Part shown: in pieces, positions 59,590 to 62,093 of the stretch
Layout: each line of letters starts with the position of its first letter
How positions within the stretch are numbered: the first letter of the stretch is position 1
Source: Roseateles puraquae
GTDB lineage: Bacteria > Pseudomonadota > Gammaproteobacteria > Burkholderiales > Burkholderiaceae_C
Reading direction: 5' to 3'
DNA length: 64,000 nucleotides
NCBI RefSeq assembly: GCF_002205845.1
Contig: NZ_NISI01000001.1
Span: 1,178,001 to 1,242,000, forward strand
The notes under the pieces: model-generated
The model's database searches: none
The model's input: the letters and a program-made list of their open reading frames with translations, nothing else
Told to the model about the DNA's origin: nothing
Program-made: the position numbers and the translations under genes

Positions 59590-60957
59590 ATGCATCTGCA
59601 CATCCTCGGCATCTGCGGCACCTTCATGGGCGGCCTGGCTGCGCTCGCGCGCGAGGCCGGCCACAAGGTCACCGGCTGCGACGCCAACGTCTACCCGCCC
59701 ATGAGCACCCAGCTCGAAGCCCTGGGCATCGAACTCATCCCCGGCTTTGGCGCGGAACAGCTGGAACTCAAGCCCGACGTCTTCGTCATCGGCAATGTCG
59801 TCACCCGCGGCGAGCGCTTTCCGCTGATGGAAGCCATCCTGGACGCCGGCCTGCCCTACGTGTCGGGCCCGCAGTGGCTGGCGGAGCATGTGCTGCAGGG
59901 CCGCCACGTGCTGGCCGTGGCGGGCACGCACGGCAAGACCACCACGACCTCCATGCTGACCTGGATCCTGGAGCACGCAGGCCTGAAGCCTGGCTTCCTG
60001 GTGGGGGGCGTGCCGCAGAACTTCGGCGTGTCGGCGCGGCTGGGCGAGGGAACCCCCTTCGTCATCGAGGCTGATGAGTACGACACGGCCTTCTTCGACA
60101 AGCGCAGCAAGTTCGTGCACTACCGGCCGCGCACGGCCGTGCTGAACAACCTCGAGCACGACCACGCGGACATCTTCCCCGACCTCGCCGCCATCGAGAC
60201 CCAGTTCCACCACCTGGTGCGCACCGTGCCGGCCAGCGGGCGGTTGGTTGTGAACGCACGAGAAGAGGCCTTGCAGCGTGTCATCGCCCGCGGTTGCTGG
60301 AGCGAGGTGCAGCGCTTCGGCGCCAAGAAGGAAGAAGCCGGCATGCTGCGCGCCCGCGGCGAGCCGCAGGCCTTCGACGTGCTGCGCGGCAGCCTGAAGG
60401 TGGCCCGTGTGGAATGGGGCCTGATCGGCGAGCACAACCAGCTCAACGCGTTGGCTGCCATCGCCGCCGCGGAGCATGTGGGCGTGACGCCGGAACAGTC
60501 CGCCGAGGCGCTGGCCACATTCCAGAACGTGCGCCGCCGCATGGAGCTGCGCGGCGAGGTGCGGGGCATCAAGGTCTACGACGACTTCGCCCACCACCCC
60601 ACCGCCATGCGCACCACCATCAATGGCCTGCGCCGCCGCATCGCCCCGGCCGAGCGCATCCTCGCCATCTTCGAGCCGCGCTCCAACACGATGAAGCTCG
60701 GCACCATGAAGGCCCAGCTGCCCTGGGCGCTGGAGGAAGCCGACCTCGCCTTCTGCAACCAGCAGGGCCTGGCCTGGGATGCGAAGGAGGCCTTGGCACC
60801 CATGGGCGCTCAAGCCGTCGTCGGAGCCGATGTGGATGCACTGGTCGCTGCCGTCGTGAAGGTCGCGAAGCCGGGGGACCATCTGCTGTGCATGAGCAAT
60901 GGGGGCTTCGGGGGGATTCACGAGAAGCTGCTGGCGGGGTTGGCCGAGCGAGGCTAG
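59590..60957 (+). CDS. mpl: UDP-N-acetylmuramate:L-Ala-gamma-D-Glu-meso-DAP ligase
   Basis: 455 residues from ATG 59590 with GGGAG 10 nt upstream. Mur ligase family: HILGICGTFMGGLAALAREAG, ATP loop VAGTHGKTTTTSMLTWIL, EADEYDTAFFDKRSKFVHY, DDFAHHPTAMRTTINGLR and FEPRSNTMKLG. Mpl reattaches recycled tripeptide to UDP-MurNAc. It is the last gene before the 725-bp repeat region. Confidence 0.96.
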   Translation: MHLHILGICGTFMGGLAALAREAGHKVTGCDANVYPPMSTQLEALGIELIPGFGAEQLELKPDVFVIGNVVTRGERFPLMEAILDAGLPYVSGPQWLAEHVLQGRHVLAVAGTHGKTTTTSMLTWILEHAGLKPGFLVGGVPQNFGVSARLGEGTPFVIEADEYDTAFFDKRSKFVHYRPRTAVLNNLEHDHADIFPDLAAIETQFHHLVRTVPASGRLVVNAREEALQRVIARGCWSEVQRFGAKKEEAGMLRARGEPQAFDVLRGSLKVARVEWGLIGEHNQLNALAAIAAAEHVGVTPEQSAEALATFQNVRRRMELRGEVRGIKVYDDFAHHPTAMRTTINGLRRRIAPAERILAIFEPRSNTMKLGTMKAQLPWALEEADLAFCNQQGLAWDAKEALAPMGAQAVVGADVDALVAAVVKVAKPGDHLLCMSNGGFGGIHEKLLAGLAERG

Positions 60958-60991
60958 ATCGTCCGCGGTCGTACCGGCCGCTTTTGCCCAA

Positions 60992-61636
60992 AGCCTTTGG
61001 ACTCCATGCACCGTTCCGGGAGTCCGCCCCGGCGGGCGGGTAACTTTTCTCTGTCGCGCCAGAGAAAAGTCACCAAAAGAGAGGCGCTGAACCGCAAGTC
61101 ATCGGGCTGGTGCTGAAGCTCACGCGCGAAAACTCGTGCTCGGCTTGTGCGCCGAAGCGATCCGCTGCGCTCTCGCTGCTGTCCCTGTCACGACCACCAT
61201 CCATCGCACCTTCACGCCGGTTAACGCCGGCTGCACGCCGGGCTCACCAGTGAATGCACCAACCCGCACGACGCGCCGTCGACGGCGCTTGGTCTTCAAC
61301 TCGTGAGTTCGGCGTGCAGCCGACGTTGACCGCACAAGCGGTGGATGACGCGAGGTCTGGATAGGGTCAGCAGCGAGAGCGCAGCGGCTCGCTTCGGCTA
61401 AGTCTCTGAGCGTTTGTTTTCGCGCGATGTCCTTCGCAGGCCAGAGGCGACTTGCGGTTCAGCGCCTCTTCTTTGGTGACTTTCTTCTGGCGCAGCAGAA
61501 GAAAGTTACCCGCCCGCCGGGGCTGAGCCCGGACACAAGACAGCCCACTGCAGGCTGTCTTGTGCCTGGCGAAGGCCTTGCCGCTTGCAAGCGGCAAGGC
61601 AGGACTCCCGGCACAGTGCACCGAGTCGCAAAGGCT
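60992..61636. repeat. Long imperfect inverted-repeat element between mpl and the thioesterase gene
   Basis: The gap 60958-61682 has no gene. It contains two collinear inverted arms: 61026-61100 with 61449-61523 (67 of 75 bases identical after inversion), 61151-61185 with 61364-61398 (33 of 35), and 61220-61247 with 61303-61330 (24 of 28). The centre is near a perfect 16-bp palindrome at 61273-61288. Paired positions sum to the same value (122549-122550), so the arms align almost without gaps. Similarity resumes outside the arms: 60992-61025 resembles the inverse of 61602-61636, offset by about 79 bp. No transposase frame is seen. Confidence 0.88.
61534..61600. repeat. Two palindromes forming an asymmetric insert in the right arm
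   Basis: 61534-61564: stem CACAAGACAGCC/GGCTGTCTTGTG (12 bp, 7-nt loop). 61575-61600: a perfect 26-bp palindrome centred on TTGCAA with CTTGCCG/CGGCAAG shoulders. They fill the roughly 79 bp by which the right flank exceeds the left in the inverted-repeat element. The same CTTGCCG/CGGCAAG shoulders occur in the ctaA-ctaB hairpin at 17801-17820. Confidence 0.75.
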
Positions 61637-61682
61637 CCCGGCACAGGCAACCCCGCAACAACGGCGGCGGACAAACCACCCT

Positions 61683-62093
61683 TCACTTCCCGTACAGCAC
61701 CATCTGCGTACACCGAAACAAGGCCATCGTCTTGCCCGTGTCCTTGTTGGTCACCACCGCATCCCACACCTGCGTCGTCCGCCCCAGGTGCACCGCCTTG
61801 GCCACACAGGCCACCGTGCCCTCGCGCGCCGTGCCCAAGTGGTTGGACTTCAGCTCCACCGTCGTGAAGCCGACTGCACCTTCAGGCAGGCTGGCCATGC
61901 AGCCATAGCCCGCACAGGTGTCGGCCAGCGTGACGACGCTGCCTGCATGAAGAAAGCCATTGGGCGCCATCAGCTCAGGGCGCACCGGCAGTTCGGCATG
62001 CACCTCGCCGTTCTCGACCTTCGTGATGACGATGCCGAGATGGCCCGGCAGGTTGCGCGCGCCGGCGGCGTTGAAGGAGGCGGTGTCCGCCAT
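61683..62093 (-). CDS. PaaI family hotdog-fold thioesterase
   Basis: 136 residues; AAGGAG lies 6 nt before ATG 62093. Hotdog domain with ELPVRPELMAPNGFLHAGSVVTLADTCAGYGCMA (shown as APNGFLHAGSVVTLADTC) holding the catalytic Asp, and TVELKSNHLGTAREGTVACVA. It should hydrolyse an aromatic or medium-chain acyl-CoA. No catabolic operon is nearby, so the substrate is unknown. Confidence 0.9.
   Translation of the reverse strand: MADTASFNAAGARNLPGHLGIVITKVENGEVHAELPVRPELMAPNGFLHAGSVVTLADTCAGYGCMASLPEGAVGFTTVELKSNHLGTAREGTVACVAKAVHLGRTTQVWDAVVTNKDTGKTMALFRCTQMVLYGK

Follow-up and report, generated by a model that had tools for sequence, protein, structure and literature searches.

Triple-helix RNAs include telomerase RNA and the 3′ end of MALAT1, with triples of the U·A-U type. 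To our knowledge, natural examples of long RNA triple helices are few and come mostly from eukaryotic RNAs and from riboswitches. Integron cassettes are single unrelated genes with palindromic sites, termed attC. Among bacterial RNAs, the SAM-V and guanidine-III riboswitches (PMC6061858, PMC5696562) are triple-helix pseudoknot RNAs, and the type III toxin-antitoxin RNA CptIN (PMC4627078) is a case of bacterial RNA pseudoknots in repeats. MITEs and other non-autonomous elements, including RU-1, RU-2 and RU-3 (PMC2759123; reviewed in PMC2229807), are short, dispersed, intergenic and enzyme-less sequences with inverted ends. REP and BIME sequences, with their RAYT transposases (PMC2817692, PMC3686654), are palindromic, intergenic and present in many copies per genome. 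A systematic survey of stem-loop families has also been published (PMC2267715).

The window analysed here is a stretch of 64,000 nucleotides of the Roseateles puraquae genome (contig NZ_NISI01000001.1, positions 1,178,001 to 1,242,000), in which a preliminary description had placed an inverted-repeat element at 60992-61636. The element lies between a gene ending at 60957 on the plus strand, which we take to be mpl, and a convergent gene at 61683-62093 on the minus strand, presumably encoding a hotdog thioesterase. Only short ORFs overlap it, in agreement with the gene-free gap initially noted. Self-comparison of the gap recovered all three arm pairs of the preliminary description, with 78-88% complementarity (61023-61100/61449-61526, 78 nt, 88%; 61123-61195/61354-61426, 73 nt, 78%; 61218-61251/61299-61332, 34 nt, 85%). 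It also confirmed the perfect 16-bp palindrome GCGCCGTCGACGGCGC at the centre (61273-61288, no strand), at which place some relatives have at least one gene between the arms. An outer arm pair, 61000-61025/61602-61627 (26 nt, 85%), had not been noticed before. Because a palindromic outer sequence (GCTTTTGC..nnn..GAGCC-like) runs past the ends first proposed, the true extent is slightly wider, about 60980-61648, the inverted repeat itself being upheld. The whole element, outer palindrome included (GCTTTTGC-nnn-GAGCCTTT-like / AAAGGCTC-nnn-GC..), has no strand, and its outer sequence is recognisable, if sometimes degraded, around all 10 copies of the genome. The predicted folds of the two strands, at -473.2 and -475.4 kcal/mol, are far from chance: shuffled sequences average -274.9 and -278.5, which gives z -20.6 and -26.7, and none of 20 shuffles was as stable on either strand.

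Each arm begins with an end module, i.e., its first ~85 nts, and is read outward. The left end module, comprising the outward-reading pseudoknot and the H1 hairpin region, spans 61010-61087 on the minus strand, as indicated by covariation and by a match to the R1 covariance model at 61009-61094. Its stem S1 (61039-61074, minus strand), recognized from the inverted repeat, the module layout and the pair count, joins 61039-61053 with 61060-61074 around the apical loop 61054-61059. Next to it are the left third strand (61075-61082, minus strand; outward RNA TCTCTTTT), predicted by third-strand fit to lie along the purine strand AGAGAAAA, and the S2 strand (61083-61087, minus strand; outward GCGCC), which pairs with the apical loop GGCGC according to S2 permutation tests and the pair count. 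In the left H1 region (61016-61039, no strand), the H1 stem count identified a stem A (61016-61020/61028-61032) and a stem B (61024-61029/61034-61039), which exclude one another. The remainder of the outward-reading left arm forms its interior (61088-61272, minus strand) and has its counterpart in the right arm interior (61289-61461, plus strand), both assigned from arm comparisons and strand asymmetry. On the right, the predicted triple-helix pseudoknot (61462-61510, plus strand), row 1 of alignment A5 at 61460-61510, consists of S2 (61462-61465 with 61490-61493), the third strand (61467-61474, TCTTCTTT) and S1 (61475-61489 with 61496-61510), all on the plus strand. The right H1 region (61511-61523, plus strand), placed by sequence and sibling comparison, is interrupted by an extra two-hairpin insert of ~78 bp (about 61524-61601, no strand), missing from eight of the nine sibling copies and shared with one (L002), a related piece being found at G000:C39:252634. 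The insert has pushed out the right outer palindrome (61602-61648, no strand), which is defined by the outer arm pair and by flank comparison.

Around the core (61218-61345 in the window copy), attC-like boxes are seen in many copies of the genus, GCTTAAC/GCCTAAC at one border and GTTAAGC/GTTAGGC at the opposite one. In the flanks of four copies (L059, L035, L007 and L008), an outer unit, GCACCGAG..GCAAAGGCTC-nnn-GCAAAAGC, is present in degraded outward tandem on one or both sides. The outer palindrome was also considered as a separate REP acting as the target, an idea rejected as the main reading since 12 of its 16 matches in the own genome are at element ends and the other four are weak (E 0.03-4.2).

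Searching the R. puraquae genome with the element identified 10 near-full copies, i.e., the window copy and nine siblings at 85-95% identity, plus and minus matches marking the same places via either arm. With the R1 end-module model, 38 full-length ends were detected in this genome (E 0.05), a count possibly missing weak ends as 150 of 4119 first-look candidates were scored. Inward-facing pairs account for 34 of them, with 20 in the 10 elements and 14 in seven pairs of a second kind, and the remaining four lie at contig ends (C5, C7, C9 and C42 of G000). The assembly was therefore probably interrupted by the hairpins, so that more copies would exist than were counted. The second-kind pairs (L320-L323, L212), members of the same family, measure 557-582 bp and are located at G000:C12:1278465-1279045, C12:1283551-1284121, C2:33115-33683, C23:168720-169276, C38:230696-231277, C39:20469-21028 and C39:252745-253310. 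Six of these pairs were inspected and contain short stems, e.g., CTTTTTG and CTTTCTGG.

Across the genus, 17 of the 19 other genomes match the element at E 1e-10, some partially, and two (G003 and G017) have no match at this threshold. The preliminary description had proposed a genome search with the arms, which returned many intergenic copies with recognisable ends, in the own genome as well as in relatives. With 10 copies in one genome and matches in 17 of 19 others, the contrary outcome it had envisaged, arms unique to this site and diverging freely, was not what was found. Arms within elements differ by roughly 20%, and the left/right asymmetry is mostly constant within a lineage. On plasmids, the window element matches four and a single-arm copy three of 72,556 records, and the single-arm copy, the only query used for phages, matches none of 50,697 records.

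The history of the window site could be followed at four orthologous sites, derived from 80 fetched thioesterase loci, five of which had an mpl match, one of them (L064) to a part of mpl far from the gap. The full element is present in L061, the short outer palindrome alone in L060, and no repeat in L067 and L068. Because the closest relative, L060 (mpl 99.1% identical to that of the window), is without the core and the more distant L061 (95.3%) has it, L060 is read as a case of core loss. This is simpler than two gains, which are a possible alternative. The orthologue in L061, a separate assembly, makes it very unlikely that the element is an inverted duplication created by assembly, a pitfall raised in the preliminary description. 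L060 (JAIPCJ010000005.1) belongs to a MAG titled Methylotenera, and its mpl and thioesterase genes are 98-99% identical to those of the window genome; it looks as if the title is wrong or the bin is mixed.

The end module is found well beyond the genus. The R1 model, built from 20 sequences and trained on the stem and H1 without S2 or the third strand, matches 91 of 250 genomes of the order, in 49 of 121 genera (E 0.01), and, at E 1e-4, 64 of 274 genomes of the class, which we take to be Gammaproteobacteria, and 23 of 249 genomes of the phylum, the own genome being counted throughout. Every phylum match among those listed falls within the class, the share of the 249 phylum genomes outside the class not being given. 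Inward pairing is the rule in some genomes and not in others. For example, G253 has nine inward pairs and two lone ends, G073 seven pairs and one lone end, and G222 four pairs and no lone end. In G254 all four full-length ends are unpaired, in G268 all seven are lone, with no pairs, and in G116 lone ends predominate. In other genera, single-arm copies, with no partner within the flank fetched, have a defined far end, common to the copies of one genome. The earlier proposal that two ~250-bp repeats met head to head holds in part: single-arm copies exist in other genera, and in the own genome every full-length end detected away from contig ends is paired.

Other arrangements were observed. In G107, three pairs are in the opposite arrangement (C4:277963-278226, C1:476788-477048 and C4:346858-347124), with modules back to back and outer ends ~70-100 bp apart. 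Minimal pairs of 293-330 nts, hardly extending beyond two modules, were seen at G778:C1:961547-961862 and in five other places. A short internal motif, AACTCG-hairpin-CTCRRACA, was recognized by eye in arms across genera (G254, G134, G222, L050-L052 and L308).

In Rfam, the best score for 60700-61900 of the window was 68.4 bits, against a gathering threshold of 268. At 61154-61395, the plant models MIR918 (68 bits) and MIR8622 (38 bits) scored far under gathering, probably owing to the long GC-rich hairpins that these models describe. In six module-bearing loci, SRP RNA alone exceeded gathering and one further match was sub-threshold, neither being on the module. Among the papers listed by searches of open-access full text, none was recognisable as describing the element.

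When 139 module matches from the genus and the order were laid out, the stem, the apical loop and the downstream purine segment were found to vary together. In the outward direction, the S2 5′ strand comes first, then a pyrimidine loop of 8 nt, then a stem of 15 bp with the S2 3′ strand in its apical loop, which is the arrangement of an H-type pseudoknot. Loop and stem purine strand have the same direction, the parallel orientation required of a Hoogsteen third strand. In a first set of 121 usable modules with 27 stem types, the purine segment mirrors the stem purine strand at 6.8 of 8 positions, against 5.8 with tails shuffled (z 8.4, 0/2000). A direct repeat gave z 3.6 (0/2000) in this set, and complement readings of the purine segment gave no signal in the same 121 modules. 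In addition, the apical loop pairs with the tail beyond the purine segment (z 6.6, 29 loop types, 0/5000). A second set, 64 modules from other orders of the class, reproduced both the mirror relation (z 5.0, 0/2000, 19 stem types) and the loop-tail pairing, S2 (z 9.7, 32 loops, 0/5000), the direct and mirror readings having the same raw score here (6.42 each) and the mirror being ahead only against its own permutations (direct z 2.9, 7/2000).

In a register fixed by S2 alone, the third strand obeys the code (T·A, C·G or G·T) at 332 of 424 positions (z 9.9, 53 combinations), with 28 of 191 hairpins omitted as they had no exact 4-bp S2. A wider set took in all 135 distinct modules with 8 of 10 stem pairs and a loop of 6 nt, none being chosen by hand or filtered for purines. 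Here the triples T·A-T, C·G-C, G·T-A and T·C-G account for 865 of 1060 Watson-Crick cells (81.6%), compared with 41.6-54.2% in six neighbouring registers. The best register is 0 in 95 of these modules and two positions off in 26, as shorter stems would produce. For alignment A5, 73 modules, mostly with 10-bp stems, were hand-picked out of 132 left after a filter, and one shifted row was dropped for the triple count. In this hand-chosen set, 557 of 565 Watson-Crick cells (98.6%, against 81.6-82.9% for all usable modules) fit the triple code (z 13.6), with 462 T·A-T, 91 C·G-C, 2 G·T-A and 2 T·C-G triples. In the DNA triplex literature, G opposite T-A and T opposite C-G are said to be exceptions. 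For the stem and S2 of A5, 96.8% of cells are paired, versus 44.9-56.4% when slid, and double changes occur in 16 of 19 pairs (190 cells, 0/500 shuffles). Because the copies are related, the z values overstate independence. Taken as sequence covariation, these data provide strong evidence for a triple-helix pseudoknot in the outward-reading ends.

The lower six stem pairs also covary in A5. By our own reading, the 15-bp stem and a full eight-triple helix could hardly coexist, because no linker would remain to span the distance to the stem base; the lower 6 bp would have to open, or few triples would form together. Moreover, C+·G-C triples require protonation. In the adjacent H1 region, a stem A of at least 5 bp is present in 133 of 165 distinct regions, stem B in 110 and both in 95, versus 1.8% of mononucleotide shuffles. 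The two stems overlap and are mutually exclusive. We infer that a two-state switch would explain both the lower-stem covariation and the H1 alternatives.

A structured RNA had been among the initial suggestions, and covariation argues for it on the outward strand of each arm, not as one giant hairpin. Among 73 elements, all except L208 (62%) have arms that match their own complement at 71-87%. Sibling arms often differ in H1 and stem modules with each local fold intact; the giant hairpin was hence rejected as the selected structure, and the local folds, rather than arm-arm pairing, carry the clearest signal.

The choice of strand is indicated by the mismatches. In the stems of 101 distinct hairpins, the non-Watson-Crick cells are 61 inward A.C (equivalent to outward G.U), 7 inward G.T and 25 of other types, many wobble cells being at the stem base and common by descent. 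In 50 hairpins from other orders, the outward G.U type occurs 17 times against 0, with 12 others, which makes 78 to 7 over both sets. A purine-motif fold-back triplex on the inward strand was abandoned for the outward pyrimidine motif after this count. For the arm interior, taken as positions 86-200 to exclude the module, the outward RNA has the more stable fold in 46 of 56 cases among single arms, in 24 of 33 among cargo arms and in 25 of 32 among arms of empty pairs, and for positions 86-250 the corresponding counts are 35 of 56, 30 of 34 and 27 of 32. In random stretches of the same loci, the two strands differ by -0.63 kcal/mol on average (n=117). This asymmetry may reflect selection on an outward RNA; because single-stranded DNA also tolerates G.T, it does not prove RNA over single-stranded DNA. 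No sigma-70-like promoter was detected in 60900-61750, and a GC hairpin followed by a U run matched the outward strand twice, against 1.1 expected, neither match being at the outward end of a module.

In relatives, similar arms surround different genes, e.g., those for Mrr, TIR, toxin-antitoxin and methyltransferase proteins. G073, a single contig, has seven inward pairs of 1000-1616 bp with different inserts, which, once trimmed, show no blastn match among themselves at E 1e-3. In one of the seven (L236), BLAST detects no inverted repeat between the two arms, and in L289 it detects a partial one only. G222 has four cargo pairs of 1159-2729 bp, and G059, G106 and G202 have one each. A 2.7-kb pair at G222:C1:172977-175705 (L307), the arms of which are 98.5% identical, encloses a toxin-antitoxin pair, a TIR protein and a 185-aa protein. 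When 11 longer pairs, nine from class genomes and two from a genome of the same family, were read by eye, the ORF was clear in seven and doubtful in four. Pfam named 7 of 20 cargo proteins, the 20 including one from a lone end (L291), as methyltransferase, macro domain, Mrr (twice), FitA-like antitoxin, PIN and TIR. PADLOC, applied to eight proteins, supported the Mrr-type assignment with 297.8 bits and the TIR assignment with 82.6 bits, gave weak scores to the macro domain (28.6 bits) and, with a TniQ model, to the L287 protein (16.5 bits), and found no match for four of the eight. Arm identity within an element is not above that between elements, except slightly in G222 (0.966 vs 0.925).

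A profile of the ends matched 97 of 101 loci searched. From these, 73 distinct elements were retained, each with two ends that scored more than 38 bits at a distance of 250-1100 bp (one duplicate dropped), and a simple codon-usage script, used to call the surrounding genes, called none inside any of the 73. They lie between codirectional genes in 45 cases, convergent genes in 18 and divergent genes in 2, with 8 unclassifiable. The gene pairs of the window itself are 32 codirectional, 7 convergent and 7 divergent.

We consider it probable (roughly 0.6) that the window copy is a dispersed non-autonomous element, the two inverted ~250-bp arms of which would specify outward structured RNAs with a triple-helix pseudoknot near the 3′ end. 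What the sequences themselves hold in its favour is the dispersed copies, the inward pairing in the own genome, the covariation of stem, loop-tail helix and third strand, the G.U strand and the varied genes between the arms of relatives. From the centre outward, each arm would be read as a structured RNA. Close to the 3′ end of this RNA, an H-type pseudoknot would place its pyrimidine loop parallel to the stem purine strand, the two forming a triple helix in the major groove (U·A-U, C+·G-C), and a further hairpin region, with switch-like properties, would follow. The outward RNAs would be made, the folded end would protect the 3′ end of each, and a trans-acting enzyme would recognize the folded end and move the arms with whatever lies between them. 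Because nothing lies between its arms, the window copy would represent the empty, MITE-like form. A bolder version, which we offer tentatively as possible rather than probable, is that of class-wide mobile gene cassettes in Gammaproteobacteria. Their outward-RNA ends would carry an eight-triple Hoogsteen pseudoknot switching with an extended hairpin, RNA ends and not DNA repeats would define the unit, and single genes, several of them defence-like (Mrr, TIR, toxin-antitoxin), would be shuttled.

It is conceivable, though rather unlikely, that RNA is irrelevant and that the folded ends of a MITE-like DNA element act as single-stranded DNA structures for a transposase or recombinase supplied in trans. 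Dispersed copies with matching inverted ends, cargo between these ends, the presence or absence of the core at an orthologous site and the G.T wobble permitted in single-stranded DNA would all be expected of such an element. The palindromic GGTGCACC on both sides of the core could likewise be read as an 8-bp target repeat; it is itself conserved in nearly all copies of the own genome. However, the strand asymmetry extends to the arm interior, and no consistent target duplication was seen by eye at four G222 elements. Furthermore, no transposase was found among the 20 cargo proteins by Pfam or, by eye, in the other listed ORFs. The module is at none of 16 Y1 transposase loci (~1.5 kb each side), and Y1_Tnp has no match (E 1e-5) in the module-bearing genomes G206, G222, G254 and G278. 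We regard as unlikely a portable 3′-UTR, or bidirectional end-of-gene element, that would terminate or stabilize the mRNAs of neighbouring genes. The position of the window copy between convergent genes suits it, as does the avoidance of divergent gaps, which hold 2 of the 65 elements that could be classified and make up 7 of the 46 gene pairs of the window (3 of 45 for single modules), but neutral insertion would likewise give promoter avoidance. For single modules, codirectional gaps are without clear bias (16 vs 9), and the terminator-like matches are near chance. In addition, among 53 single-module loci, 47 have an upstream gene called, and in 35 of these the gene nearest the outer end of the module points into it on the inward strand, so that the transcript of this gene would contain the folded module in complementary form. 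This orientation would fit an independent, putative outward RNA facing a convergent gene.

An integron-related origin, in which the core would be an attC-like site and the cargo would be cassettes placed by IntI, seems improbable. The R″/R′ boxes of attC follow the consensus RYYYAAC...GTTRRRY, and genus cores, often bounded by the GCTTAAC/GCCTAAC and GTTAAGC/GTTAGGC boxes, fit it in many cases, not in all. By eye, attC-like palindromes adjoin the cargo in L307 and L308, whereas a scan with the box consensus found an attC-like site in none of 15 cargo loci, including these two. An integrase is over the cut-off in all five order genomes in which cargo pairs of at least 1 kb were seen, but also in 4 of 10 other genomes tested, and the own genome has none. 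Moreover, no DNA was found in common between cargo elements and the integrase neighbourhood fetched from the respective genome, and the end module is in none of 10 such neighbourhoods. Finally, an ordinary old inverted duplication with no present role, with which the arm divergence and the mostly lineage-constant asymmetry would agree, is very improbable in view of the class-wide occurrence and the three-strand covariation, and is already hard to hold for the end module.

The variation among sequences suggests that a three-strand code has been maintained in dozens of variants, including the rare G at T-A and T at C-G inversions (two cells each in A5). This triple-code repeat has many copies per genome across a bacterial class, and no Rfam family was found for it. 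The element family offers a ready evolutionary data set for the rules of triple-helix formation. It also raises the questions of what moves elements with RNA-fold ends and of why single, partly defence-like genes lie between them.

Compared with known systems, the element resembles MITEs in being short, dispersed and intergenic, with inverted ends and without an enzyme of its own. It differs from them in that its ends are a covarying pseudoknot with a third strand instead of a simple terminal inverted repeat, some copies carry a gene, and a source transposase was not found. Like REP and BIME sequences it is palindromic, intergenic and multi-copy, but REP units are much shorter than the element described here and, unlike the REP/RAYT association, the 16 Y1 transposase loci fetched are without the module. 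Similar to integron cassettes, it is associated with single unrelated genes and palindromic sites; in contrast to integrons, its arms flank both sides, in inverted orientation, with no attC hallmark beyond the core box consensus. It departs from CptIN in that most copies are without a known adjoining toxin gene and form inverted pairs instead of tandem repeats. With triple-helix pseudoknot RNAs the module shares its predicted form, an H-type pseudoknot with a loop in the stem groove. Unlike those RNAs, it would be a dispersed repeat present in two outward copies per element, each with eight predicted triples, rather than a riboswitch leader.
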